Source: a sulfur-oxidizing endosymbiont of Gigantopelta aegis | GTDB taxonomy: Bacteria > Pseudomonadota > Gammaproteobacteria > GRL18 | Direction: 5' to 3' | DNA length: 64,000 bases | NCBI RefSeq assembly: GCF_016097415.1 | Contig: NZ_JAEHGE010000001.1 | Coordinates: 583,001-647,000 of the forward strand | Shown: piece by piece, positions 44,486 to 62,129 of the stretch | Position numbering within the stretch: the stretch's first letter is position 1 | How the letters are laid out: each line of letters starts with the position of its first letter | The notes under the pieces: generated by a model | Told to the model about the DNA's origin: nothing | Databases searched by the model: none | The model's input: only the letters and a program-made list of their open reading frames with translations | Program-made: the position numbers and the translations under genes

Positions 44486-45613
44486 TTATTCTGATGTGCC
44501 CTGGGGTGCCAACTCTTTTCGCTCAGAGCCGGAATGTGCTTCCACTTGAGGTAGCTGCTTGCCGCCAAAAATATTATCAAAGCGCCAATTCATGAATTCG
44601 GGTGTCTGTATATAGGTTTTATTGACAATAAATTCCAGCACGTTTTTCAGACGATAGACATGAGCCACGGATTCAATTCGGATGATTTCATTGCCTCTTT
44701 CATCAAATGCAATCAGGGTTGGTGCATAGAATAAATTCAGTTGTTCTGCCCACTGTCGTGCTGTAATGCGCTGTCCATTGGGGGTAATGATAGGGGTATC
44801 GGAGTGCATATCCAGTTGTACGATTTCAAAATGCGACAGCAATTTTCGGGTTTCTTCAAACTCCAAAGGATCTGAATGTAGCACATCGCAGGCATGACAG
44901 TCCTGCTGTTCAAAAAACACCAGCAAGGGCTCTTGCGCTTTAAAGTGACTACGATCCAGTGCATACGGAGGCATCATAAAAAAGTCTTCATTGTTAAGCG
45001 CTGAGACTTCAAAGCGTGGTGGTGGGTTAGCCCTAAACATATAGTCACGCAATGACTCTTCTTTGTAATAGCCCTGCTCAACATATTCCATGGCAGCCCG
45101 AAATTTATACGGTGGATAAAAGCCTCTTAGCATGAGCGCTTTTTCACCTTTTTCATTGTAGAAAATCAGCGTCGGGGTAAAGTTGGCTCGTTCACGTAAG
45201 GCATATTCACGCTCAGTCATCACCTGCCCATCCGGTGTGGTTACTTCATTACTACCCCAAATATTGACCGCAATTACATCAAAGTTTTTTCGGGTATACA
45301 TTTCTATGTCTTTACGGCCAAAATCTTGTTCCATTAGTGCCTGACAATAGGCACAGTGTTTCTGACCGAAATAAACAATAATACCCTTTTTACCGTTTTC
45401 TACGGCTTCAGTGATATCTTCGGGTAACACCATAAAGCTTTTTTTAAACCATTCCGGTGTTGCGACTTCGGGAATGACGGGTCTGTCATCAAAACCATTT
45501 TCCCATTCTTCATCCCAGTCATCAGCCGCCGTACCTGCGGCATAGAGAGCATGAGAAAACATAATTGCCAATAAAATAATTACAATTTTTTTCATTAATT
45601 TATCTGTCTTCAT
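44486..45613 (-). CDS. Periplasmic tandem-thioredoxin protein (SoxW/DsbD-C-like)
   Basis: I start at the ATG ending at 45613, which opens a signal peptide (MKTDKLMKKIVIILLAIMF, cut near ALYAAG). A frame to 45691 adds 26 polar residues with no support. Two thioredoxin-like domains follow: the first has CAYC (in GQKHCAYCQAL), the second has CHAC (in QQDCHACDVL). Each has the cis-Pro context FTPTLIF or YAPTLIAF. The two active sites imply a periplasmic thiol reductase or electron relay. SoxW-type proteins support sulfur oxidation or cytochrome maturation, but no such genes are nearby and the role is inferred. Confidence 0.82.
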   Translation of the reverse strand: MKTDKLMKKIVIILLAIMFSHALYAAGTAADDWDEEWENGFDDRPVIPEVATPEWFKKSFMVLPEDITEAVENGKKGIIVYFGQKHCAYCQALMEQDFGRKDIEMYTRKNFDVIAVNIWGSNEVTTPDGQVMTEREYALRERANFTPTLIFYNEKGEKALMLRGFYPPYKFRAAMEYVEQGYYKEESLRDYMFRANPPPRFEVSALNNEDFFMMPPYALDRSHFKAQEPLLVFFEQQDCHACDVLHSDPLEFEETRKLLSHFEIVQLDMHSDTPIITPNGQRITARQWAEQLNLFYAPTLIAFDERGNEIIRIESVAHVYRLKNVLEFIVNKTYIQTPEFMNWRFDNIFGGKQLPQVEAHSGSERKELAPQGTSE

Positions 45614-46016
45614 TGAACATAATTCATCACCAACGCTTAAACCATTAAGCAATCGTCCATTATAAAGCAATTTGTCCTCTAAGTGGCGCAATGATGAAAG
45701 AATTTTATCTCTTTATTAGGCGTTATTGCTATGCTTCGTGCCTCAATCACAGCCTACGGGCAAACTCAGAGATGGAGGGAAACACTATTCGAGGAAGTTA
45801 ATGACTGGTATTAAACAGGGAGGGTGTAATTTCACTAATTTTTTTAGGTTTATTAGATGCTATTTTTTTAGCAGGGATTTCAACTAATCTTGGAGCATTC
45901 TATAGCAACTGGGCGTTTTCAAAATCAATACCATGTTTGGCATAGTTTTGTTTGCTTTTATTTTCATCGTACTCAAATAACAACATAGTATAAAATATAT
46001 ACCTATTTTAAACTTA
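45614..46016. other. Gene-poor gap with a possible degenerate membrane ORF
   Basis: These 403 bases hold no intact gene of recognised family. At 45796-45940 a hydrophobic frame (LIFLGLLDAIFLAGISTNLG ... SIPCLA) follows an ATG in another frame at 45801 with GAGGAAG before it. A single frameshift would join them into a protein of about 50 residues, so this may be a decayed small membrane protein. Confidence in this is low. Confidence 0.3.
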
Positions 46017-46512: not shown

Positions 46513-46935
46513 ATGAACGTCACCCATCACCTACAAAAAGTTCTAAAAAAAGAGCAACAAAAAGAACAAACTATCACCTGGCTTACCTTATTTACCACCA
46601 CGGGCACATTGGTTTGTTGTGCTTTACCCATTATTTTTGTCACTTTGGGGCTTGGGGCAACTGTTGCCGCCATGACTTCAGCTTTTCCAATTTTAGTCAC
46701 CATGAGCAAATATAAAATCTGGGTATTTGCTTTTTCTGGCTTCATGTTATTACTTTCCGGTTGGTCGATGTATCGTCCCGGACGACAATGCCCAACGGAT
46801 AAAGCACTAGGCCAAGCCTGTAGTCGCGCTTATTTATGGAACAAGCGCATCTACTGGAGTTCTGTGTTCATCTGGTCTATTGGTGCTTTTGCTGCCTTTC
46901 TTGCCTTACCCTTACGTATCTGGCTGGGGGTATAA
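46513..46935 (+). CDS. MerT-like metal transport membrane protein
   Basis: Inner-membrane protein of 140 residues with three hydrophobic segments (about 28-50, 70-85 and 118-135). The first carries the vicinal Cys pair in TLVCCALPIIFVTLG and the loop after the second has a further pair in RQCPTDKALGQAC. This pattern of a Cys-Cys in TM1 and two cysteines in the cytoplasmic loop is that of mercuric transporter MerT. It lies directly behind a MerR-type promoter. The metal is not certain, since Hg, Zn, Cd and others are possible. The RND exporter gene starts 2 bases after its stop. Confidence 0.75.
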   Translation: MNVTHHLQKVLKKEQQKEQTITWLTLFTTTGTLVCCALPIIFVTLGLGATVAAMTSAFPILVTMSKYKIWVFAFSGFMLLLSGWSMYRPGRQCPTDKALGQACSRAYLWNKRIYWSSVFIWSIGAFAAFLALPLRIWLGV

Positions 46936-48383
46936 CGATGTTAGCACTTGCCCGTATTGCCACTGAATACAGTAAAATAATCTTATTATTACTCTTGCTC
47001 ATCACTTTGGGTTTTGCCTCACAATTACGACACCTGCAAATTGATGATGATATTTTAAATATGATCCCTACGGATCATCCAGCGCGCTTATTACAGGAAA
47101 ATATCGAACAGCAATTTGGCCTACGTGATCTGGTTATTCTGGCAGTTGAAAATCCTCAGGGAGCATTTAATGTTGAATCACTCGCCCGAATTAAGTCACT
47201 TAGTGATTATTTACAATCCCTGCCCGAAATTATTGCCGAAGATGTCACGAGTCTAGCGACAACCGATAATATCGTTGCTCATAATGATGACTTATTAATT
47301 CGTCCGCCATTAAGCAAGCTCCCTCATAATGATACTCAAGCCAAAGCCGTTTTTCAGGAAATTAAAGACAATCCATTATTTCTTAATCGTCTGGTTTCTG
47401 CTGATGCGAAGGTCATTGCAATTTTTGCCCCCCTAGCAAAAAATACCACCCGCCGCTCAGTCTATGAACAAGTCAGTCAGCATCTTGCGCAATTAGCACC
47501 AGCCAAAAATGGCGACCAAATTCTGGTCTCCGGTAATGTGATGATTGAAGGTGCTCTGGGCTTTTCCATGCGCAGTGATTTACGCCGATTAGGGCCGGTG
47601 ATTATAGTGGTTTTATTATTATTACTGAGCATCTATTTTAAACATTTCAAACTCGCCTTATTACCCATTCTGACGGGCATTATTTCTGTCATTTGGACTA
47701 TGGGCTTGCTATCAATTCTGCAAATACCGGTTTATTTACCAACCACATTAATTCCTGTGATGCTATTGGTGATTGGTATTACCGATGAGGTGCATTTAAT
47801 TGCGGTCTATAAAAATCTGGGACTGAATGAAGACCGCCATAAGAGTATTTTCAACGCCTTGAAAAAAATCATTCGTCCTATTGGCCTGACCTCTATGACC
47901 ACGGGAGTCGGCTTTGTGGCATTAAGTTTCAGCCCTATTTTACCCTTAAAACATTTTGGCTTATTCACCGCCTTTGGCATTATGGTTGCCTATTTTCTTA
48001 CCTTTAGCCTAACGCCTGCATTTTTAGCACTCATGCACCGCCCTAAAGCCTGGGCTCACTCCAATGCACTGCAGAAAAAATCCCTCATTATCTGGTTATG
48101 GTTGTCACAATTGTCTGCCAAAAACATTAGTATCAGTTTGATCTTTATCAGTTTCACGATTGCTTGGGGCGCATCAGGTATTCGTGTTGACGAAAATTGG
48201 GTTAATCGCTTTAAGTCCGGGACAATTTTATATGAATCCGATGCCCGACTTAATCAATCACTGGGTGGAACCAGCATGCTTTATGGCTATATTGTCAGCG
48301 ACCAGGGTACGCTTAAAAAACCTTTCGTATTGCAAGGTATTGAGCAATTACAACAGGCTATCAGTCAGTTAGATAACATAGGC

Positions 48384-50290
48384 GTAACTTCTCAATAAGT
48401 CTGTGCAAAACTTGAAATAAAAACAAAAAAAGTCTTGACAGCATTTTAGAGGACAAAAATTGCATTTTCACTGCCCCATGTAATTTATCCCTATAAATGA
48501 TCCTGTCGATCTGTCTCAGATCGAAATAGAATATTTTTGAATATTATCTTAACTGAGAGGGAGTTTGATCAACACAGGGCAAACTAAAGAGCCTTAAAAA
48601 GCCATGATACAATTGTTTTATTGAAAACAACCTGTATTGATTATAGTGAAAAAATTACCTCCAATTCCAGAGATACCTGAAGAAGAAAAAGACACCGGTA
48701 GTCCGATTACTCCTTGCTTTCATGGAGCAACAACAGGAAATCATTCAAAACCAACAGGTTGAAATCGATGCCCTTAAAACAGAAGTTGCTAAGCTTAAAA
48801 AGCTACCTCCAAAGCCTAAAATAAGAGCCAGTAAATTGCCAAAGGATGATGACAATGATAATCCGACAGGTCATTCAGGAAGCAAGAAAAACAACTCAGG
48901 AAATGGGACTAGTAAAAGTCGTAAACGAAAGAAGAAATTGGCTATTCATAAAACCACCGTTATCAAACCAGATAACCTGCCAGAACATTCACGTTTTTTA
49001 GGGTATCAGGATTATTTTGTTCAGGAGCTGCTGATTAAGCCTTTCAATACTCGTTATCGATTGGCTCGCTATAAAACACCCGATGGTGATACCTGTATAG
49101 GAAAATTGAGCTTTGATACACATATAGGACATTTTGGCCATACATTACAGAGTTATATCGTTTATCAATATTATCACCAGAGAGTGACTCAGCCATTGAT
49201 AATACAACAATTAACAGAATTAGGTTTTGATATTTCAACGGGTCAGATCAATGAGATTTTAATCCATGACAAAGACCATTTTCATACTGAAAAAATACAT
49301 TGCTAACTGCCGGTATCAACAATAGTACTTATATCCATGTTGATGATACGGGTAGTCGTCATGATGGAAAGAATGGTTATTGTACTCACGTTGGCAATGA
49401 AACCTTTGCCTGGTTTTCAAGTACTCGATATAAGAGCCGGATTAATTTTCTACAATTGTTACGAGGTGCTGCTGTTGATTATACGCTCAACGATGCAGCA
49501 CTTGATTATATGAGAGCAGAAAAATTACCTCACAAGCCATTGAGCGTTATTGAACAAAGTCATCAGACTTGCTTTGATAATGAAGAAGCCTGGAAATACT
49601 ATCTGCAGAACAATAGTATCATAACACAACGGCATGTTCGCATTGCCACAGAAGGCGCTTTACTGGGGGCATTAATTAACAGTGGCTTTCCAAGTGATTT
49701 GGTGATTGTGAGTGATGATGCAGGACAATTTGATATTTTGTTGCACGCATTATGTTGGATACATGCAGACAGAGTGTTTCAGCGGATACTACCACTCAAT
49801 GAGCGACATGATAAAGAACTGAACTGGGTACATACTCAGATTTGGGAACTATTTTATGATCTCAAACAATATAAACTTGAGCCAGATGATCCGTTGAAGT
49901 CAGCGATTGCTGAACATTTTGATGAATTGTGCCGGACTAAAACAAGCTTTGAAACGTTGAATCAGGCACTGAAACGATTGGCAAGAAATAAAACAGAATT
50001 ACTGCTGGTATTGGAACGGCCTGATATTCCTCTTCATAATAATTTGAGTGAAAATGATATTCGAGAATATGTTATTAAGCGTAAAATTAGTGGTAGTACA
50101 CGCTCAAAGGATGGGCAACTTTGCAGAGATACCTTTGTCAGTTTAAAGAAAACTTGTTTGAAACAAGGAATTTCATTCTGGGATTTTATTAATGACCGGA
50201 TCAGCAAGAGAAATTTGATCCCATATCTGCCTGAGTTGCTGAAAGGTAAAGTTTGTGCTGTTTAAATGCACAGACTTATTGAGAAGTTAC
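48384..50290 (+). mobile_element. IS66-type insertion sequence (single-transposase, ISBst12-like)
   Basis: The element has 1907 bp. Perfect 24-base inverted ends begin GTAACTTCTCAATAAGTC and are flanked by an exact 8-bp target duplication ACATAGGC (48376-48383 and 50291-50298). The GTAA tips and 8-bp duplication are typical of the IS66 family. Only one transposase gene is present and there is no tnpA or tnpB, as in the ISBst12 subgroup. The transposase is frameshifted. Confidence 0.92.
48646..50265 (+). pseudogene. IS66-family TnpC-like transposase with two frameshifts
   Basis: The protein begins at GTG 48646 (KKLPPIPEIPEEEK). The frame then shifts by one near 48690, so that PVVRLLLAFMEQQQEIIQ continues in the next frame. 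It shifts back near 49300, after HFHTEKIHC. The parts together show the leucine-rich N-terminus, a basic linker and the IS66 catalytic region (HVDDTGSRHDGKNGYCTHVG, VIVSDDAGQFDILLHALCWIHADR, LSENDIREYVIKRKISG). The first and third parts share one frame, so the two shifts compensate each other. The enzyme is likely dead unless programmed frameshifting occurs. Confidence 0.9.
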
Positions 50291-51121
50291 ACATAGGCAA
50301 GGTAACGTCCATTATTGATTTACTCAAGCGCAGCAATCGGGTATTAAACAATGATGATCCGCTAATGGAAATTTTGCCGGCATCAGAACAAGCCATCGCA
50401 CAACAATTGTTACTACTTGAATCCAGTGGTGATCCTAATGATTTAGAAGTATGGATTGATAACCAACAGCAGCAAGCATTATTGTGGATACAAATTAAAG
50501 ATCCCTATGCCTCCACAACCCGACAAATTTTACCTCAGCTAGAACAATTAGTTAAACAGTATATTCCTGAACTCAAGGTCTATTTTGGTGGCCCGGCACA
50601 AGTGAATGTCGCCATGGCTGATATGGTCGTCAGTAGTCAATTAAGTAGTTTAGGCCTCTCTTTTGTTGCTATTTTTCTAGTGCTAATGCTTATTTATCGC
50701 TCCCTCAGCTGGACATTTCTGGCAATGTTACCCTTAACCATCGCCCTTTTGAGTATCTTTGCCATACTGGCTATTACTGATCGCTACATTGATATACCGC
50801 TGGCAGTTCTGGCATCTATCAGTCTTGGCTTAGCAATTGATTATGCTATTTATGTGTTAGATCGTTATCGTCAGGCTCGCCTCGATGGTCAAGCACAAGC
50901 GGTACAACACAGTCTGTCTCAAAGTGGTTCTATTGTGCTTTTAAACAGCATCATTCTTGCCATTGGTTTCAGTATTCTAGTACTCTCACAGTTTGCCCCA
51001 CTGACGGCCATTGGCTTATTAACCGCTGGAGTGCTACTTATCAGTGCTAGCATTTCATTGCTATTGCCGATTTTGGCATCGCATCTATCTCTTAAATAGC
51101 CCTTAAACAACCCTTTAAAAA

Positions 51122-51934
51122 GTGAACAATAAACTTATGCCCTATTCTCTGAGTTTTTACGGTTTTATATTGATCGGCCTACTTTCTGTCAAGGGGCATG
51201 AATTGCAGGCAATGGAACAAACATCTTCGCCCGATGCTTTGACCCTGATGCTAGCAGAAAAATTGCGTGATACGGGAAATAATGAACGCGCCGATATTAG
51301 CATGATACTCATTGATGCTAAAGGAGCACAACGAGAAAGAAAACTCATTCGCCTACGTGTGAGCGATGGTCGTGAACAAAAGATTCGACTGCAATTCCAA
51401 TTTCCACCGGATCTACGTGATACAGCTTTATTGTTACATGATCATTCCGACCGTGATGATGATCGCTGGCTTTACCTACCCACCTTACGCAAAGCAAAAC
51501 GTATCTCCGGCGCTCAGAAATACCGTCATTTTCTGGGTACTGATTTTACCTATGATGAACTCGGTGGCCGTGAACCTGAGGAAGATAAACATCAACTACT
51601 GGGTGAAGAAATACTGGATAACAAAGTGGTTTATAAAATAAAAAGTATACCCATAGAACAAGAAAATCCTTATCAGTATCGTCTTACCTGGTTAGAAAAA
51701 ACAACATCCATTATTTTAAAAGAAGAATATTTTGATCGTCATGGTCGTTTAAAAAAACGTATGCTCGTTAATAATATTCAAAGCCTACAAGGTATTCCAA
51801 CCATACTGGAACGAGAAATGCAGGACATACAACAGCAACATCGTACTGTTTTGAAATTTTCTCAAGTAAAATATAATACTGATATTAGCTCACGTTTTTT
51901 TCATTCACGCCAGCTTGATCGCCCCATTAAATAA
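51122..51934 (+). CDS. LolA-like outer-membrane lipoprotein-sorting protein (PF17131 type)
   Basis: The protein has 270 residues from GTG 51122, with an ATG 15 bases later as an alternative. It has a signal peptide (SLSFYGFILIGLLSVKG). The mature part shows the LolA-like half-barrel used with MMPL exporters: MILIDAKGAQRERKLIRLRV, DTALLLHDHSDRDDDRWLYLPTLRKAKRIS and GTDFTYDELGGRE. It is probably the periplasmic lipid-carrier partner of the RND exporter encoded just upstream (22-base gap). Its stop overlaps the ATG of the next gene by one base. Confidence 0.85.
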   Translation: MNNKLMPYSLSFYGFILIGLLSVKGHELQAMEQTSSPDALTLMLAEKLRDTGNNERADISMILIDAKGAQRERKLIRLRVSDGREQKIRLQFQFPPDLRDTALLLHDHSDRDDDRWLYLPTLRKAKRISGAQKYRHFLGTDFTYDELGGREPEEDKHQLLGEEILDNKVVYKIKSIPIEQENPYQYRLTWLEKTTSIILKEEYFDRHGRLKKRMLVNNIQSLQGIPTILEREMQDIQQQHRTVLKFSQVKYNTDISSRFFHSRQLDRPIK

Positions 51935-53166
51935 TGTGCTATCGTTTTAGCCATAGCTTTTATCATAGCTTAGTCTTAGTCTGCATTCTTTTAAACAGCA
52001 ACCAAGTCCTCGCTGATAAACCACGCTGGCACTATACCTTATCAAATGATAGCGCTATTGCACTTGATGATGGCAAGACGCAAAAATTTCGCACCGTGTT
52101 TGCGCCTGAAGTGGCTTGGGATATTGTTGATGACTGGCGTTTTCGTACTCAGGCACGACTATTAAGTGATCCACAATTTGATGGTTGGAGTCATGAGTCA
52201 TCGCTGCGCGAATTCACTCTGGACTGGGCAAATGATGATAGCCGTGTACGGCTAGGTTTACAGCAAGTCGTCTGGGGACAAGCATCTGGATTTCTCTCTA
52301 GCTTTGATGTCTTTCACCCACAGGATCAACGTGAATGGCTATTACCCGCCTTTGATTTTTTGCGTAGGCCTCTGTGGATGGCACAAGCACAGCAGTTTTT
52401 TGGCGATTGGATGCTTGAGGCGCTTTGGTCACCAGAGGACAAAGTCAATCGTAGTGCCAATCAGGGTGATATTTTTTATCTCGGAAGTAAACCAGCACCT
52501 ATAGGCCAAGATATTATCGCCTACAAAAAAAAGCGTGATCATCAACGTTTGGCTCTACGTTTATCCACCAGTTTTGATAGCTTAGATCTCGCATTTATAT
52601 ATATGTCCGTACCGCAAAATAAAGCCATTATTAGTTATGAACCCGTCAGCCCCGGACAGTTAAAACAGGTCAAGCGCTATCAGCGCTATGACATATTGGG
52701 CTTGTCTCTTTCGCAACAATTAAATAATGCCATATTGCGCAGTGAGTTAAGCTATTATTCCAATATTGAAGTGCAAACAAGTAGTCTTTCAGGTGTCACT
52801 CAAAGTGATAAATTGAATTTTATCTTAGGTATGGATATGACTCTGCTCACGAATATGGATATTACTATTGAGGCTGGGCAGTATACCTTTTTGAATTATC
52901 AGGGCAACTTTATCGAACGCAAACACACCACTCGCGCTATGTTTCAGATCAGTAAAACGTTTCGCCACGATACTTTGATTCCTCGTCTGAGTATGGTCAG
53001 TGATTTACGCCAAGGCAATCTTTTATTTCGCCCCGCACTGCAATGGCGCGTGACCGATCAATTCATTGTCACTACAGGGCTGGACATTATCAGTGGTAAT
53101 GGTCAACCGTTTCAAGCCTTAGGTGATACTGATCGAGGTTTTATTCAGCTTGAATTTCGGCAATAA
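51934..53166 (+). CDS. DUF1302-like outer-membrane beta-barrel protein
   Basis: The protein has 410 residues with a signal peptide (SFYHSLVLVCILLNSNQVLA). Barrel-type strands follow, with aromatic residues at their ends (WHYTLSNDSAIAL, RLLSDPQFDGWSHESSLREFTLDWA, VWGQASGFLSSFDVF). The last strands end GFIQLEFRQ. It resembles DUF1302 proteins, which are often encoded with MMPL transporters and a LolA-like or DUF1329 protein. It is the fourth gene of the operon and follows the LolA-like gene without a gap. The role is presumably the outer-membrane exit or anchor. Confidence 0.75.
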   Translation: MCYRFSHSFYHSLVLVCILLNSNQVLADKPRWHYTLSNDSAIALDDGKTQKFRTVFAPEVAWDIVDDWRFRTQARLLSDPQFDGWSHESSLREFTLDWANDDSRVRLGLQQVVWGQASGFLSSFDVFHPQDQREWLLPAFDFLRRPLWMAQAQQFFGDWMLEALWSPEDKVNRSANQGDIFYLGSKPAPIGQDIIAYKKKRDHQRLALRLSTSFDSLDLAFIYMSVPQNKAIISYEPVSPGQLKQVKRYQRYDILGLSLSQQLNNAILRSELSYYSNIEVQTSSLSGVTQSDKLNFILGMDMTLLTNMDITIEAGQYTFLNYQGNFIERKHTTRAMFQISKTFRHDTLIPRLSMVSDLRQGNLLFRPALQWRVTDQFIVTTGLDIISGNGQPFQALGDTDRGFIQLEFRQ

Positions 53167-53278: not shown

Positions 53279-53581
53279 ATGAAATCATTACTCATTAGCC
53301 TCAGCTTGCTTTTCTTCTTGGTGCTTTCGAGCCTTGCATCAGGCAAACAGGTCGTAAACATTGATATTAACGGCATGAGCTGTAAATTTTGTGCTTATAG
53401 TGTGCAAAAAAGTCTCAACACATTGCCTGGCGTTGAAAAGGCTGACGTGAATATCGATACGAATAAAGCCCAAGTGGTAATGGTTGATGGTCATGAAGCC
53501 GATATTGAATTGATCAAAAAGAAAATTATTGAATCCGGCTTTAGCCCTGCTAAAGTCACCCTAAGTAATAAAGATAACTAA
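53279..53581 (+). CDS. MerP-like periplasmic HMA metal-binding protein
   Basis: The protein has 100 residues with a signal peptide cut near LASGKQ. The mature part is one HMA domain: VVNIDINGMSCKFCAYSVQK, with the metal site CKFC, then LPGVEKADVNIDTNKAQVVM and IIESGFSP. This matches MerP, the periplasmic mercury carrier that works with MerT, whose homologue is encoded 6.3 kb upstream under a sister promoter. The thioredoxin gene follows 15 bases later. The metal specificity is unproven. Confidence 0.85.
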   Translation: MKSLLISLSLLFFLVLSSLASGKQVVNIDINGMSCKFCAYSVQKSLNTLPGVEKADVNIDTNKAQVVMVDGHEADIELIKKKIIESGFSPAKVTLSNKDN

Positions 53582-53793
53582 ACAAAGAGAAAAACGATGA
53601 ATATTGAAATTTTCTCCTCTCCCGGTTGTGGTAAATGCGGCCATGCCAAAGTGGTATTAAGTGAACTAGCAAACGAAATTGGTGGTGATAAAATCAATTG
53701 GCGTGAGGTTAATATTCTCGAAGAGATTGATTATGCCGTTGAACTTGGCGTAATGACAACACCGTCAATTGCCATTGATGGTGAATTAATTTT

Positions 53794-54837
53794 CTTGATT
53801 ACCCACAAAGCTCCGCCATATTTCGATAACTATACTATAATTATACTATAATTAAAGTATAGATTATGTGTGGAGTAGAATGATGTCAAAAAATAAAATT
53901 CAGTTTCAAGAAGGTTATAGTTTATTTGAGCTTTTTAATGATTATGGCACTGACAAACAGTGCCGACAAGCCTTATATTTAAATGGAAATTTCCTGATGG
54001 ATTTGTTTGCCCAGAGTGTGGCAATAAGACTTATTGCACTCTAGAACATCGCCATCTTTATCAGTGCCACCATTGTCATCATCAGACATCAGCAACCTGT
54101 GGGACAATATTTGATAGTACCAAACTGCCTTTATCTAAGTGGTTTTTAGCGATTCATCTTATGACTCAATTGAAGACAGCGGTTTCAGCATTAGAATTAA
54201 AGAGACAGCTTAAGGTAAGCTACAATACAGCCTGGAGTATGAAACAAAAGATCATGCAGGTTATGAAAGAACGTGATGACAGTAAACCTTTATCAGGCAT
54301 CATTCAAATTGATGATGCCTACTGGGGTGGTGAGCACAGAGGCGGCTCCAGAGGTCGTGGTTCAGAAAATAAAACACCGTTCGTTGCAGCCGTTTCTACT
54401 AATGAAGATGGACACCCGATTGCAATGAATTTAAATGTGCTTAAAGGGTTTAAATCCAGTGAAATAAAACGATGGGCACAAACTCATTTAACACCTGGAA
54501 GTACTGTTTACTCAGATGGGTTAAATTGTTTTCCTGCGGTTAAAGAAGCTGACTGTAAGCATGTTCCAATCGTCACGGGTGGTGGTGCGGCAAGTGTTGA
54601 TAAAATTGAGTTTATCTGGGTTAACACTATGATAGGTAATATTAAAAACTCTATGAAGGGAAGCTATCATTCCATTAACTCAAAACATTTACCTCGGTAT
54701 CTTGCTGAATTTTGTTATCGGTTTAATAGACGCTTTAACTTAAAAGACATGATGCCAAGGTTTTTATGCGTGGCGATGAAAACGCCACCTATGAATGGAA
54801 AGCTCCTAAAAATGGCGGAGCTTTATGGGTAATCAAG
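53794..54837 (+). mobile_element. IS1595-family (ISXO2-like) insertion sequence, copy 3
   Basis: The element has 1044 bp in the opposite orientation to copies 1 and 2. It has inverted ends CTTGATTACCCA and an exact 8-bp duplication TTAATTTT (53786-53793 and 54838-54845). It has one 11-base TATAAT-type unit fewer than copy 1 and a 2-base insertion in the transposase gene, which together account for the 9-base size difference. Confidence 0.95.
53880..54832 (+). pseudogene. ISXO2-like transposase with a 2-base insertion
   Basis: Compared with the intact copy (32991-33941), an extra AT at about 53975-53978 (CTTATATTTAAATGG in place of CTTATTTAAATGG) shifts the frame after residue 30 or so. The remaining frame starts at an out-of-context ATG and keeps the zinc ribbon and the DDE core. 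The native start (GGAG then ATGATG) is present but reads out of frame after the insertion. Confidence 0.9.
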
Positions 54838-54921
54838 TTAATTTTTGCCGGCCTGCCCTCGGCGAAAAAACTACGTATCGAACTCGAACAACGACTTCAG
54901 GCTGAGAAAGCGGAGTAACTT

Positions 54922-56226
54922 ATGATTACCTTATTATTATTAAGTGCAACACTATTAGGCTTACTGGCTTTTTTTGAACCTTGCACCATTGCCACCCATA
55001 CTTTGTTTTCTGTGCGCGTTAACCAAGCCAATGATCGCCAGGCCTACTATGATTTATTTCTTGTTTGGCTCAGCCGCACACTCTTATTAATAGGTTTACT
55101 CACACTTGCTGTGATCTTAATCGAGCCCCCTCAATGGGGAATTTATACCCCCAGCATCATTTTATCTATCATGGCGATGGTCTATGTCATTTCACGTTTC
55201 ACCTATATTCCCGTGCCCCATTTGGAGTTTTTCAAATTACTGCCCGGCGCTCAAAATTTACCCTTTTCGTTACAATTAGGCCTGACTCTACCCGCCTGTA
55301 CTCTGCCCTTAGTCGTGGTCACCATGGGCATGGCTGTCACGGTTAATTCCATTGGCTTTGCTATCCTGTCTGGCTTTTTGTTTGCTACTTTATTTACCCT
55401 GCCCTTGTTCATTACCGCCTATAAAGGTGTCCATGACGAGACTAAACAATTACTCAATCAGGCCGCTAAAAGCAGCCCCTATCTAACGGCATTATTGTTA
55501 CTTGGAACCGCCTTATATTTGTTAATGCCAAGCATGAACATCACTGCTGAAGCACTCAAGCAAACCTTGCAAACAGCCAGTTGGGCAGGTATCGGCCTGT
55601 CATTTATGGCGGGACTTGTCTTCAGTTTTAATCCCGTTTCTTTCGCCTCTGTGCCCGTTATGCTTGCTTATGTTACCAAGGCGCATGAACCTAAACGTGC
55701 GGTATTGATGGGAGGGGCATTTGTCTTTGGTATGCTAACGACTCATGTAGTGCTTGGTGTTGCAGCTGCGTTGGGTGGTGAATGGGTGCAAAGTATCATG
55801 GGTAGGCAATGGGGTTTATTATTAGGCCCTGTATTAATTATTATGGGATTGATGTGGTCTGGACTCATTAATATTCGCCTACCCTGGTTTGGTGTTAAGG
55901 GAAGAAAAGTCACGGGAATTTGGGGTGCTTTTTTATTGGCGATTCCATTTTCTGTTGCCGTTTGCCCCTTCTGTACACCCGCCTTATTGGTTACTCTAAC
56001 CGCCAGTGCTGCAATAGGCTCAGTCAGCTTTGGCTTTGTTTTATTGTTGGCCTTTGCTCTGGGGCGCAGTATCCCCATTATTTTAGGCGCATGGAGTATG
56101 GGCTGGCTGGAATCCCTGCAAGTGTTGTCCCGACATCAAAAAATATTTGAAATCAGTGCCGGTGTTGTGTTAATTCTGGCTGGCTTCTATATGCTAAATG
56201 AGTATTTTTTACTGATTGAATATTAA
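54922..56226 (+). CDS. Duplicated CcdA/DsbD-like thiol transporter
   Basis: Inner-membrane protein of 434 residues with about 12 helices that reads as two CcdA-like halves. The first half (about 1-200) has the Cys pair in FFEPCTIATH and LTLPACTLP. The second half (about 225-434) has SFNPVSFASVP, where the usual Cys is Val, and VAVCPFCTPALL. CcdA moves electrons from cytoplasmic thioredoxin to the periplasm. It follows the broken thioredoxin gene by 3 bases and shares MerR-type promoter 2. The pair could keep the thiols of the MerP-like protein reduced or load it (inference). A hairpin of the GTAGGGTGGG type follows. Confidence 0.8.
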   Translation: MITLLLLSATLLGLLAFFEPCTIATHTLFSVRVNQANDRQAYYDLFLVWLSRTLLLIGLLTLAVILIEPPQWGIYTPSIILSIMAMVYVISRFTYIPVPHLEFFKLLPGAQNLPFSLQLGLTLPACTLPLVVVTMGMAVTVNSIGFAILSGFLFATLFTLPLFITAYKGVHDETKQLLNQAAKSSPYLTALLLLGTALYLLMPSMNITAEALKQTLQTASWAGIGLSFMAGLVFSFNPVSFASVPVMLAYVTKAHEPKRAVLMGGAFVFGMLTTHVVLGVAAALGGEWVQSIMGRQWGLLLGPVLIIMGLMWSGLINIRLPWFGVKGRKVTGIWGAFLLAIPFSVAVCPFCTPALLVTLTASAAIGSVSFGFVLLLAFALGRSIPIILGAWSMGWLESLQVLSRHQKIFEISAGVVLILAGFYMLNEYFLLIEY

Positions 56227-56291: not shown

Positions 56292-58091
56292 TCAAATTTC
56301 CTGTTGACTGCGATTGTTTATCATGAGATTAGTTTGTCCTTTGCCAGGAATTTCAGGACGTGCTAAAAAAGGTTCTTTTCTTAAATCACGTAAACTTTTT
56401 GGCTTATTTGGATCTCCGATCCAAATAGGGTGCTTAGTAAAGTCGGCATTAACAATACTACGTGTCGCATCAAAGTCTTTAAAATCAATGCCTGCCAAGT
56501 CGGTCCAGGTATATATAAAATCAGATGAACTATAAAATCGATGGACTACTTTCTCAACATCTAGCTTAGAATGATGCTTTTTCTTCCATGAATCACTCTG
56601 CCAGACAAAAAATGGAATGGTATACATGGGTCCTGTCGGAGCAGCTTCATTACGCCCGGTAAAAAGCCGCTTTGAATTATCATAGACTTCTTCACCATGA
56701 TCGGATAAATAAGCTAAAAAGCCATTATTGCCACTCTCTTTCAAAGTATTAATTAGGCCTGATAAAACTAAATCATTAAAGTGAATGGCATTATCATAAG
56801 CGTTATATTCTTCTACCTGACTTTCATTAAGCCACTTTGGCAAATCTTTATTACTTTGAAACACTGTTGAGTCTTCGGGATAACGATAACTATATTTTCT
56901 ATGTGTTCCCAACAAATGAATCACTATAAATTTTTTTCTCTGGTCGTTTTTGTTGCTAAATTTAGGGTTTTCTAAAATCGCTTTAAAGGGTCTTAAAACC
57001 ACATCATCATAGTGTGCCGAATTTTGATTTCTATCATTGTTTAAATAAATTTGCTCATCGGCCTGTTTAGAAAATGTTGTCAGCATGGTATTACGCTTGG
57101 TTTGTGTTTGCTGATTGGTTATCCAATAGGTTCTATAGCCCGCCTGTTTCATTAGGTTCATCAGTGTTGGCCGACTTAAATAGACATCTGGATTTTTTTC
57201 ATCTGCAAAACTAAGCACCTGCTCTAAAGTTTCTATGGTATAGGGCCGAGGTGAAAAAACTTGATCAAATATAATTAAGTCATCTTTCATGGCATCAAGC
57301 TGCGGTGTTGTTGGGCGATGATAACCATATAAACTCATCCGCTGTCGATTAGTTGACTCACCTATCACTAACACCAGTGTATTCGATGTTTCATTGTTAT
57401 TATCATGCAAGCCTTGCAGGGGTGGTAGTTTCTTATTGGCCAGCAAATTTTGTTCGATATCATGAAGTTGTTCTTTATATTTTATATAACCCGCAATCAA
57501 ATGCCAGGGAGCTGCGGGTTCCATACGATTCATCTGTGCATGTAAAGCCTGTTTTAAAGTGCTATGCTTGACCAAGAGTCGATCATAAGTGGGCCATGCC
57601 ACGATAGCGAGTATAGAGATGGTTAATGCCATTCGCATTGTTGCCTCAGAGTGAAGTGGTTTTATTTTTGTCCATAAAAAAACCGCCAATGCAGTATAAA
57701 TAAAAAACCCTAAGACAATCCACCAACTAAAATACGATTCGAGGTATTCACTGCCTTCACTGATATTCGATTCAAATAAGATAAATAGCACACTTTGGGA
57801 AAAGTTTTGCCCATAAACGGCATAATAACCAATCAAAACTAATGATGTAGACCAGAGAATGATGCCAAAAATAGCAGACAAACTTTTCGTCTGCCGAGGA
57901 AAGAGTATTAATGGAATGAGCCATAAAAAGCTCATGTAGACGGTTTGGCGAAAGCCGTTAAAGCCTGACTGATGACTGAGATATAAAAATAGTTGATAAA
58001 ACCCAGAAAAATAAAAGAAAAACAGATAGGCGAACCAAAAATGAGACCATGAAAAAGTAAACTGTTGGAATGATTTTTCTGTTGACAGCAT
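56292..58091 (-). CDS. cptA: Phosphoethanolamine transferase, CptA type
   Basis: Inner-membrane enzyme of 599 residues. Several N-terminal helices include GQNFSQSVLFILFESNISEGSEYLESYFS. A periplasmic sulfatase-fold domain follows with the Thr nucleophile in VLVIGESTNRQRMSLYGYHRPTTP, and with YWITNQQTQTKRNTMLT and DHGEEVYD. Segment order and sequence resemble E. coli CptA, which adds phosphoethanolamine to heptose I of the lipopolysaccharide core. The modification reduces negative charge and can raise tolerance to cationic peptides. The gene lies at the start of an envelope-modification region. The acceptor is inferred from the family. Confidence 0.9.
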   Translation of the reverse strand: MLSTEKSFQQFTFSWSHFWFAYLFFFYFSGFYQLFLYLSHQSGFNGFRQTVYMSFLWLIPLILFPRQTKSLSAIFGIILWSTSLVLIGYYAVYGQNFSQSVLFILFESNISEGSEYLESYFSWWIVLGFFIYTALAVFLWTKIKPLHSEATMRMALTISILAIVAWPTYDRLLVKHSTLKQALHAQMNRMEPAAPWHLIAGYIKYKEQLHDIEQNLLANKKLPPLQGLHDNNNETSNTLVLVIGESTNRQRMSLYGYHRPTTPQLDAMKDDLIIFDQVFSPRPYTIETLEQVLSFADEKNPDVYLSRPTLMNLMKQAGYRTYWITNQQTQTKRNTMLTTFSKQADEQIYLNNDRNQNSAHYDDVVLRPFKAILENPKFSNKNDQRKKFIVIHLLGTHRKYSYRYPEDSTVFQSNKDLPKWLNESQVEEYNAYDNAIHFNDLVLSGLINTLKESGNNGFLAYLSDHGEEVYDNSKRLFTGRNEAAPTGPMYTIPFFVWQSDSWKKKHHSKLDVEKVVHRFYSSSDFIYTWTDLAGIDFKDFDATRSIVNADFTKHPIWIGDPNKPKSLRDLRKEPFLARPEIPGKGQTNLMINNRSQQEI

Positions 58092-60209: not shown

Positions 60210-62129
60210 TCAACAATCTTTGCAAATAAACTGGCTACCCTGCTCATAAATTTTGTCTATTGCAGACTTATAATTCTCTGCCACAATAATGCTTTCTGCC
60301 TTAGTCACTAACTTGTCATTCGCGGTTCTAATGGCAATGCGATTCGCGCTTTTACCCGTGAAAGGAAATGTCAGCTTGTACTTCTCATCAATATAGGAGA
60401 GATAATTATAATTGCCGGCAACAAAAAACTTTCTATGATCAGTCAATAAGCTCTGCCCGAAGGAATAGCTTTCCGGTGCTGAGAGCACACCAATTAAGGG
60501 TAAAATAGTGGCTGGGATATCCAGATGAGAAGTTAAATAATTGATTGATCTAGCTGGCTCACCTGGAATAGCCATGACCATTGGCACTCGAATTTGTTCT
60601 TCTGGAAAAACAGCATTATGGCCATGCCCCCAATGACCTTTTTCCATAAACTCTTCACCATGATCGCCGGTAATGATGACAATGGTATTGTTATCCAATT
60701 GCATCGCCTTAAGTGCTTCCAATAACCGCCCCACTTGGCTGTCTACATAATGCGAGGCATTAATATAACGGTTTTTTATCAAGCCAATATTATTGCGTAA
60801 ATTTAATTTCGCATAATTCATTTCTTCAATATACTCTTTTCGAATAGCCGATGACTCAGGAAATTGATAGGGCGCGTGAGTTGCTTCAAAGAACATAAAA
60901 CTAAAAAATGGCTTATTCACATCACGATTTTTAATCGCACTAATAATATCAGTAATATTCTGCTCATCTCGTCGCCATGTATCCGGATCTTCATTTAAGG
61001 CCTGCATATCTTCTTTTGGCACATTAACAAAAATCGTGTTATTTAACTCAGGATAAGTAAAACTTTGGCTGGTATTGATTTGCAATTGATAACCTTGTGC
61101 CATTAAAGCATCAAGAATAGGACTACTGATCCGTTGCTCTTCAAAGGTATACCAATACGGTGCATAGAGACCATAAAACATAGAAAAAAGCCCCATTCGG
61201 GTACGATTACCACCGCTATAATGTCTGTTGAAGCGTAGATTTTGTTCTGAATACGCCCATGTTTTAGGCATAATTTCCGGTGTTAGCATATCCCAACGCA
61301 GTGATTCAGCCACTAACCAGACAATATTAGGCTTATTTGTTTTTATAGAAGAGCCGGTTTTATAGGAGTCTGCTTTATACACCAGAGGGGTCGATGGATA
61401 CTTAACTTTTCCATGAGACATTTTTCTAACTGATGAAGCCGGCTTAAAACCTGAACGCTTAAGAAATGAATTAAACGTCGTATTGAGATTTAAAGGAAAA
61501 GTGCTTGATGCGCTAACAATTTCAAATTCGCCTAAGGAAGCAAGCACACCATGTGACACCTCTTCTAGTGCAAAAAATAATAAAAACAACCAGAGCACAC
61601 TACGTGCTTTAATTTTTATCTCAAAAAAACGTTTTTCCTTCACTATAATTTGTTGATGCAGAATATAAAAAAATCCCAGCATTGCACTGATAAAAAACAC
61701 CACTTGAATCGTCATCGTTTGTATCGTCGCATTGGTCACACCCAACGATTCAATGCCACCCGGTGTCATGATTAAATTAATGACAAAACTGTCAATATGA
61801 TAGCCATATAAGTTATATAAATAATAATCTGAATATAAAAATAATAGCGTCAGAATGCTGATCAACAAAATAGTGGCAAAAATAAATTTCAGTATCTTTT
61901 CATTGGAAGCATAACGGTGATATAAAAACAGCAATGTTTTTGCTATGAAAAAAGTCGGTAAGAGATAATAAAATGAATAGCTCAGCCAGACATACAAAGT
62001 AAAAAAATTGGTTGATACACTCGTACTGTCAATTTCAGCCATAAATTGAGCTGTCAATACTAATATAAGTAAATAAACAGCGATAAGAAAAACATTAATG
62101 AAGTAATTGTTATTATTTTTATTGGTCAT
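60210..62129 (-). CDS. YejM/PbgA-like membrane sulfatase-fold protein
   Basis: The protein has 639 residues. Five membrane helices (about 10-30, 42-62, 80-100, 135-160 and 180-197) are followed by a periplasmic sulfatase-fold domain (about 265-600) with NIVWLVAESLRWDMLTPEI, ATHAPYQFP and VIITGDHGEEFMEKGHWGHG. The segment LYGYHIDSFVINLIMTPGG is like the equivalent in YejM/PbgA, a regulator of lipopolysaccharide synthesis. Whether it is catalytic cannot be judged here. The Ser/Thr of the nucleophile position appears as Ser in AESLRWD. Its neighbours are a PAP2 phosphatase and a sulfatase fragment on the same strand. Confidence 0.8.
   Translation of the reverse strand: MTNKNNNNYFINVFLIAVYLLILVLTAQFMAEIDSTSVSTNFFTLYVWLSYSFYYLLPTFFIAKTLLFLYHRYASNEKILKFIFATILLISILTLLFLYSDYYLYNLYGYHIDSFVINLIMTPGGIESLGVTNATIQTMTIQVVFFISAMLGFFYILHQQIIVKEKRFFEIKIKARSVLWLFLLFFALEEVSHGVLASLGEFEIVSASSTFPLNLNTTFNSFLKRSGFKPASSVRKMSHGKVKYPSTPLVYKADSYKTGSSIKTNKPNIVWLVAESLRWDMLTPEIMPKTWAYSEQNLRFNRHYSGGNRTRMGLFSMFYGLYAPYWYTFEEQRISSPILDALMAQGYQLQINTSQSFTYPELNNTIFVNVPKEDMQALNEDPDTWRRDEQNITDIISAIKNRDVNKPFFSFMFFEATHAPYQFPESSAIRKEYIEEMNYAKLNLRNNIGLIKNRYINASHYVDSQVGRLLEALKAMQLDNNTIVIITGDHGEEFMEKGHWGHGHNAVFPEEQIRVPMVMAIPGEPARSINYLTSHLDIPATILPLIGVLSAPESYSFGQSLLTDHRKFFVAGNYNYLSYIDEKYKLTFPFTGKSANRIAIRTANDKLVTKAESIIVAENYKSAIDKIYEQGSQFICKDC

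Follow-up and report, generated by a model that had tools for sequence, protein, structure and literature searches.

What is the role of a membrane protein that joins two CcdA-like halves with unequal cysteine sites and is encoded next to genes for thiol and metal-binding proteins? The question is raised by a 434-residue protein of the sulfur-oxidizing endosymbiont of Gigantopelta aegis, encoded in a stretch of 64,000 nucleotides that is called the window here. The initial annotation suggested that the two halves of this protein may have divided electron entry and exit, and that together with the adjacent thioredoxin and a MerP-like CxxC protein they could form a dedicated thiol relay for metal binding. 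The features of the window that bear on this proposal are listed in Table 1. Functional statements on CcdA, DsbD, MerT, and MerP draw on general knowledge of these proteins.

Table 1. Features of the window around the double CcdA-like protein
Feature	Position	Strand	Remarks
MerT-like membrane protein	46513..46935	+	CCALP motif; PF02411 score 15.9, below the cut-off of 32.9
MMPL/RND transporter gene, split	46836..51099	+	Interrupted by the IS66-like element
IS66-like element (named by eye)	48384-50290		Target duplication ACATAGGC; ends 24/25
LolA-like protein	51122..51934	+	In a block with MMPL and DUF1302
DUF1302 protein	51934..53166	+	In a block with MMPL and the LolA-like protein
HMA (MerP-like) protein	53279..53581	+	GMSCKFC motif; signal peptide, thus periplasmic, judged by eye
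Thioredoxin gene, 5' part	53597..53793	+	SPGCGKC active site; no signal peptide by eye
IS1595-family element	53794..54837	+	Inverted ends 24/25; 8-bp target duplication TTAATTTT; transposase 53960-54832
Thioredoxin gene, 3' tail	54838..54918	+	Continuation beyond the IS1595 element
Double CcdA-like protein	54922..56226	+	434 aa; ORF and AlphaFold2 model; 12 predicted long helices (2 x 6)
Half 1, residues 1-205	54922..55536	+	C21 (EPC, TM1), C126 (PAC, TM4); no Pfam or NCBIfam model
Half 2, residues 206-434	55537..56223	+	DsbD_TM family; TM1 Cys replaced (NPV); CPFC (C348, C351) at the TM4 break

Cysteines and predicted fold

All four motifs named in the initial annotation were present in the ORF, EPC and PAC in half 1 and NPV (residues 237–239) and VCPFC in half 2; their cysteines, C21, C126, C348, and C351, are the only ones of the protein. 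Homologues were collected from 73 related loci in the species genome collection; L074, which is frameshifted, and L080, which encodes another protein of the DsbD type, were dropped from the set. The alignment of the fused form comprised 50 full-length rows, or 47 distinct sequences after the removal of identical ones. All four cysteines were conserved in 47/47 of these, and N237, P238, and V239 were each conserved in at least 97%, which confirms that the cysteine pattern is kept more than by chance. Considered alone, half 1 retained C21 and C126 in each of 30 aligned sequences, 8 of which came from split genes.

The TM1 and TM4 motifs were surveyed in 122 loci: 100 of the family, 4 family loci cut before TM4, and 18 other CcdA/DsbD proteins. 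Both C348 and C351 were present in all 100 family loci with TM4 covered, repeats of the same gene being counted. The TM1 position of half 2 was occupied by Val nearly everywhere across the family, otherwise by Ile or Leu, and by Ser in the frameshifted L131. The other CcdA/DsbD proteins had the TM1 Cys in 17 of 18 cases (L117 was misregistered), and canonical CcdA hits read SPC and TPC.

The full-length AlphaFold2 model, built with 37 sequences (pLDDT 78.3, pTM 0.63), contained six plus six long helices, with helix breaks at or next to EPC, PAC, NPV, and VCPFC; the sides of the loops were judged by eye. With this model, the solved CcdA 5vkv was matched over half 2. This structure was the top row of the VIA-align search with the full model (residues 220–434, Z 7.0, rmsd 4.1, 193 aligned residues, 19% identity), by a small margin over unrelated transporters at Z 6.5 and below. 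The sequence-profile search for solved relatives, at E 1 or better, gave 5vkv alone (E 1.5e-5, residues 224–432). Foldseek with the whole model ranked it 16th (E 0.18), under unrelated transporters. The model of half 1 was better than the full-length one (pLDDT 89.5, pTM 0.84), and its helices, too, were broken at or close to the TM1 and TM4 motifs. Neither 5vkv nor another CcdA appeared among the listed matches of this model to solved structures; these were mostly MFS-type transporters with Z of 8.2 or less, the level of a possible common arrangement only. The assignment of half 1 as CcdA-type is therefore a prediction from sequence profiles and helix layout.

Two lineages of the CcdA superfamily

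Pfam recognized half 2 only: it scored 48.6 bits against PF02683 (DsbD_TM; cut-off 27.1) and 28 against PF13386 (cut-off 24.9). Half 1 sequences from the window, two split genes, and three solo genes gave no DsbD match in Pfam, with only unrelated models below threshold, and half 1 from the window, split, and solo genes reached no NCBIfam model. The score for DsbD (NF001419) was 25.2 bits, below the cut-off of 330. The profile of half 2 was close to canonical CcdA (hhalign P 9e-25), and that of half 1 was more distant (P 3e-5, probability 73%). Half 1 matched its solo relatives at P 1.5e-43, and these in turn matched canonical CcdA at P 3e-13. The alignment of half 1 against half 2 gave P 2e-5. 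The controls, for which profiles were reversed or replaced by four individual stretches from unrelated membrane proteins, did no better than P 0.028.

Profile alignment placed C21 and C126 onto the canonical SPC and TPC cysteines, so that half 1 has the canonical pair. Half 2 had lost both canonical positions: the TM1 Cys is matched by V239 and the TM4 Cys by F350, which C348 precedes by two residues and C351 directly follows. The loss of the TM1 Cys and the presence of two cysteines in VCPFC, as initially described, thus stand, with the correction that the canonical TM4 Cys aligns to Phe350 and is flanked by the pair. An earlier half-against-half comparison with fewer relatives gave P 0.001, covered TM4–TM6 only, and placed C126 on C351. 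The protein might also be an ordinary CcdA that acts in the maturation of cytochrome c or in periplasmic reduction at large, its metal-related neighbours being incidental. The DsbD_TM match agrees with this, and the absence of canonical cysteine positions from half 2 speaks against it.

In a tree of 51 rows, half 1 clustered with its solo relatives (100/99), and half 2 formed a group with its own solo counterparts and ArsG (96/84). The tree is rough, with the bootstrap not settled and with long-branch warnings. A tandem duplication of one CcdA was rejected, as the halves group separately in this rough tree. To judge by the sequences, both halves are members of the CcdA superfamily and belong to two different lineages; because of the tree grouping and the profile scores, the 434-residue protein looks like a fusion of two paralogous CcdA-family lineages. 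The initial description as a double CcdA accordingly holds, with the halves from two lineages and not from one duplicated copy.

The grouping with ArsG introduces the main rival of the thiol relay, metal permeation by half 2. According to it, half 2 is an ArsG-type metal or organometal permease, in which the CPxC binds a soft metal in the membrane, thioredoxin is the cytosolic metal-thiol partner, and half 1 keeps the site reduced. We consider this possible, though on the unlikely side. Besides the tree position and the loss of both canonical redox cysteines from half 2, it is favoured by ArsG of locus L170, whose TM4 Cys lies in a CP motif and aligns with C348, and which has a thioredoxin-like ORF (ArsE-like by eye) nearby. 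Most fused relatives also have cysteines behind TM1, at positions 41 and 42 (34/47 and 31/47, respectively); against the permease, the protein of the window has Ala-Tyr there and thus no CC pair. The ArsG model (NF040495) gave half 2 only 61.6 bits, far under the cut-off of 200, by which strict membership of half 2 in ArsG was rejected. Moreover, ArsG stands on a long branch, its profile is about equally near to half 2 (P 8e-11) and to canonical CcdA (P 4e-10), and it has the TM1 Cys that half 2 lacks. Compared with the profile of the solo half 1 genes, ArsG reached P 0.14, the level of the controls. Finally, the invariant canonical pair of half 1 favours a redox function of the fused form.

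Neighbourhood, distribution, and state of the locus

A thioredoxin gene was located directly upstream in 66/66 loci with room for it, 65 of them found by script and L021, with overlapping genes, by inspection. These thioredoxins had no visible signal peptide, and the active site read PGCxxC in 66 of 67 matches. MerR-family regulators accompanied 45 of 54 loci, at up to 1.1 kb on the upstream or 0.8 kb on the downstream side, and were absent from this range in 9. Control loci of canonical CcdA, with flanks of about 1.4 kb, gave 0/31 both for the same thioredoxin query and for MerR, while family loci of similar size gave 13/15 and 9/15, respectively. This difference is a further argument against an ordinary CcdA. 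With limits of 4 kb on the upstream and 2 kb on the downstream side, 26 of the 42 testable loci had HMA/MerP genes and 20 had MerT or MerT-like genes; MerA was encoded somewhere in 14 of 48 loci. Apart from the control comparison, the neighbour counts omit L001, L075–L080, and loci with too little flank. The pair of thioredoxin and CcdA genes was divergent from a mer operon in some loci, e.g., L024 and L029. MerT-like, HMA/MerP, P-type ATPase, and mer genes are frequent and not constant neighbours. The proposed relay with thioredoxin and a metal-binding partner is borne out as a gene association across relatives, with a MerP-like partner near part of the loci only.

The regulator beside one fused form scored best as CueR and that beside one split form as a Zn-type regulator, both under the cut-off, so the metal is not fixed by them. 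An unsystematic look at the operons recognized no periplasmic acceptor of the thioredoxin fold. In the window itself, a 401-residue ORF at 44486-45691 (minus strand) contained two CxxC-bearing stretches, thioredoxin-like by eye, and is a possible periplasmic thiol partner.

The modules occurred in several natural versions. In addition to the fused form, a split form was found in 13 loci, where the frame of half 1 stops after about 204 residues and is followed by half 2; 9 of the 13 records bore the label Thiobacillus or Hydrogenophilales, and L059 was a partial locus. Thiobacillus denitrificans (L069) is an example of the split form with the operon intact. Half 2 without half 1 in the locus was found in 8 of the 73 related loci, with further cases in L093 and L101 from other genomes of the class and on plasmids. 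Because half 2 with thioredoxin recurs in this way, it need not have a fused half 1. This agrees with a permease, since metal operons retain half 2 by itself, and counts against a carrier that works through both modules. Solo genes resembling half 1 (EPC ... NIPAC) were present in L156, L157, and L158, near HMA, MerR, or P-type ATPase ORFs by eye. An open 561-residue frame in L031 (5953-7635) joined the double CcdA to a MerR-type regulator and is either a real fusion or a sequence error.

Plasmids gave 16 hits, 13 of them in Proteobacteria. Of the 13 proteobacterial regions, 8 were examined, and each showed, as consecutive genes, a MerR-type regulator, a gene in the thioredoxin position, and the CcdA gene (half 2). 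These genes were surrounded by others for P-type ATPase, HMA, MFS, or MerT/MerP proteins, and 3 of the regions also had an operon with merA in the vicinity. The 8 regions are not independent, as two pairs have near-identical genes in common; the two Cupriavidus regions encode identical proteins, and two regions come from one strain. The gene in the thioredoxin position was annotated as hypothetical in one plasmid region, and the CcdA gene of L131 was broken up, being frameshifted upstream. The annotation of plasmid half 2 genes as cytochrome c biogenesis protein CcdA could be taken in favour of an ordinary CcdA; for half 2 alone this label is probably misleading. Of the 3 actinobacterial plasmid hits, two (L139 and L140) were rejected as members of the half 2 subfamily, as their CcdA regions have the canonical SPC and TPC motifs.

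Records of the half 1 and half 2 families were labelled Gammaproteobacteria and Betaproteobacteria and, on plasmids, Alphaproteobacteria. Strong half 1 matches were found in 13 of 229 genomes of the class-wide sample, decayed remnants in 2, and distant solo half 1 genes in 3. A phylum-wide sample gave matches at E 1e-10 in 31 of 398 genomes, of which 29 were only at the level of canonical CcdA (E 1e-14 or weaker, 28–35% identity); the remaining two were the window genome and L102, with a stop inside the frame. In the order of the window genome, 7 of 24 genomes matched, one merely with a distant DsbD-type protein. No match to the double CcdA-like protein was found in 15 genomes of the same genus, several of which are incomplete. 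Such a patchy distribution, with strong half 1 matches in few genomes of the class, also argues against an ordinary CcdA, a reading that we regard as very improbable. The contigs of the homologues in L028, L039, and L049 had been assigned by binning to Phycisphaerales, Marinimicrobia, and Bacteroidetes, through lateral transfer or binning error. By eye, L154 and L155 were decayed double CcdA genes: in one, EPC was changed and the frame stopped early, and the other had a large internal loss.

The thioredoxin gene that the initial annotation placed beside the double CcdA-like protein is there, cut by the IS1595-family element. The ORF seen at 53597-53851 is a chimera of 66 thioredoxin residues and 18 residues read from the element. 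With the intact thioredoxin of a relative as a query (E 0.01), only the two pieces were found in the whole genome and no intact copy. The truncated ORF, the sole sequence scanned, scored 30.7 with the ArsE-type model TIGR00412 (cut-off 62). The transposase had 89 matches in the 4.9-Mb genome, fragments counted, and many were 99–100% identical, which reflects a recent and heavy expansion; the break of the thioredoxin gene is thus probably recent. As the thioredoxin gene is cut, the thiol relay of this genome is probably crippled, being either defective or dependent on a substitute donor.

The MerP-like CxxC protein proved real, with an HMA domain (PF00403, 48.2 bits, cut-off 24.8); its score for MerP (TIGR02052) was 46.3, below the cut-off of 92.55. 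No MerR gene was identified next to the thioredoxin–CcdA pair of the window, and a mercuric reductase above the cut-off was encoded about 70 kb downstream of the window. The MerT-like CCALP family, under the Pfam cut-off for MerT, recurs near the pair in some other loci. A block of MMPL, LolA-like, and DUF1302 genes precedes the pair in three loci, i.e., the window (50266-53166), L009, and L028. Two genes resembling membrane sulfatases or phosphoethanolamine transferases lie downstream on the minus strand (56292-58091 and 60210-62129; only the first was scanned), the first having an apparent counterpart beside the pair in L002.

For the window genome only, and compatibly with any of the readings of function, the gene may be a relic of an acquired operon that decays under the expansion of IS elements, which we rate somewhat short of an even chance. 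The thioredoxin and MMPL genes are each split by an IS element with intact target duplications; the many transposase matches, the lack of matches in the same genus, and the decayed copies in L154 and L155 point in the same direction. Against decay, the CcdA-like ORF is intact and 82% identical to its relatives, with dN 0.11 and dS 3.4 (saturated) in comparison with L002; dS was not computable for four other pairs tried.

Putative function and comparison with known systems

The explanation that we put first, with a chance of about one half, is a metal-induced, two-module transmembrane thiol carrier for defence against soft metals, probably of the mercury group or Cu(I), with the system in this endosymbiont probably defective or served by a substitute donor. 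Thioredoxin would exchange thiols with the CPxC pair of half 2, and half 1, with its canonical TM1/TM4 pair, would carry reducing equivalents across the membrane. The acceptors may be metal-binding thiols, e.g., the CxxC of the HMA (MerP-like) protein or the CC pair of a MerT-like protein, which would have to stay reduced for metal binding. Neither of these is an obligate acceptor, as they are near only part of the loci. The thiol relay is favoured because of the constant thioredoxin, the canonical cysteine pair of half 1, and the metal context; the invariance of all four cysteines and the helix breaks near the TM1 and TM4 motifs of the models also count for it. A division of electron entry and exit between the halves, as first suggested, is possible. 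Against the relay, half 2 may not be a redox carrier, since both of its canonical redox positions are gone; among named proteins, the tree places it closest to ArsG, which has a permease annotation and a long branch; MerR is absent near some loci and near the pair in the window; the operons showed no recognized periplasmic acceptor of the thioredoxin fold; and the listed fold matches of half 1 included no CcdA.

The two ideas could also be combined. The protein would then correspond to a heterodimeric transmembrane metal-thiol exchanger with its two partners fused, in which the CPxC of half 2 passes a soft metal to or from the dedicated cytosolic thioredoxin and half 1 resets the site by moving electrons; we hold this to be unlikely. 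If it were true, a known electron-carrier fold would have been turned into a metal conduit. A conduit of this kind would put the CcdA fold to metal transport, and the thiol relay would represent a dedicated thiol supply for metal defence. On either reading, half 1 represents a recurring module of the CcdA type for which Pfam and NCBIfam have no model, and half 2 a CcdA subfamily with rearranged cysteines, both tied to one thioredoxin and to metal regulators. The fused, split, and half-only versions make the question directly testable by gene removal.

Among the open-licence PMC matches listed, no title or abstract opening dealt with the thioredoxin–CcdA pair or a double CcdA. In the accessible part of PMC12195606, actinomycete CcdA and TrxA proteins are tabulated as mercury transporters. 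The accessible part of PMC8261052 contains neither "DsbD" nor "cytochrome c biogenesis", and no CcdA is among its matches listed. In the accessible text of PMC9144182, ArsG is named an efflux transporter and Chen, Zhang and Rosen 2019 is cited on ArsEFG; the accessible text of PMC10190100 cites it likewise.

Compared with known systems, the protein shares with CcdA (PF02683/PF13386; 5vkv) a module of six helices that is interrupted at the motifs of TM1 and TM4, and its half 2 is over the Pfam cut-offs. It differs from CcdA in combining two modules in one chain, in a half 1 that Pfam does not recognize, in its metal-operon setting, and in a half 2 without the TM1 Cys and with CPxC around the TM4 position. 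With ArsG of the ArsEFG system (NF040495), it has in common a DsbD_TM-type gene near a thioredoxin-like ORF and the alignment of the CP-motif Cys with C348; unlike in ArsG, half 2 lacks the TM1 Cys, has a second cysteine, C351, and is accompanied by half 1 and by MerR, HMA, and mer neighbours. DsbD and ScsB transfer thiols across the membrane. The DsbD_TM core is common to them and to our protein, which at 434 residues has no fused periplasmic domains and scores far below the DsbD cut-off. The mer operon with MerT and MerP likewise combines a CC-type membrane protein with an HMA CxxC protein nearby, and mer genes are adjacent in some of our loci; here, however, the constant core is thioredoxin with the CcdA-like protein, and the MerT-like protein of the window is under the MerT cut-off.
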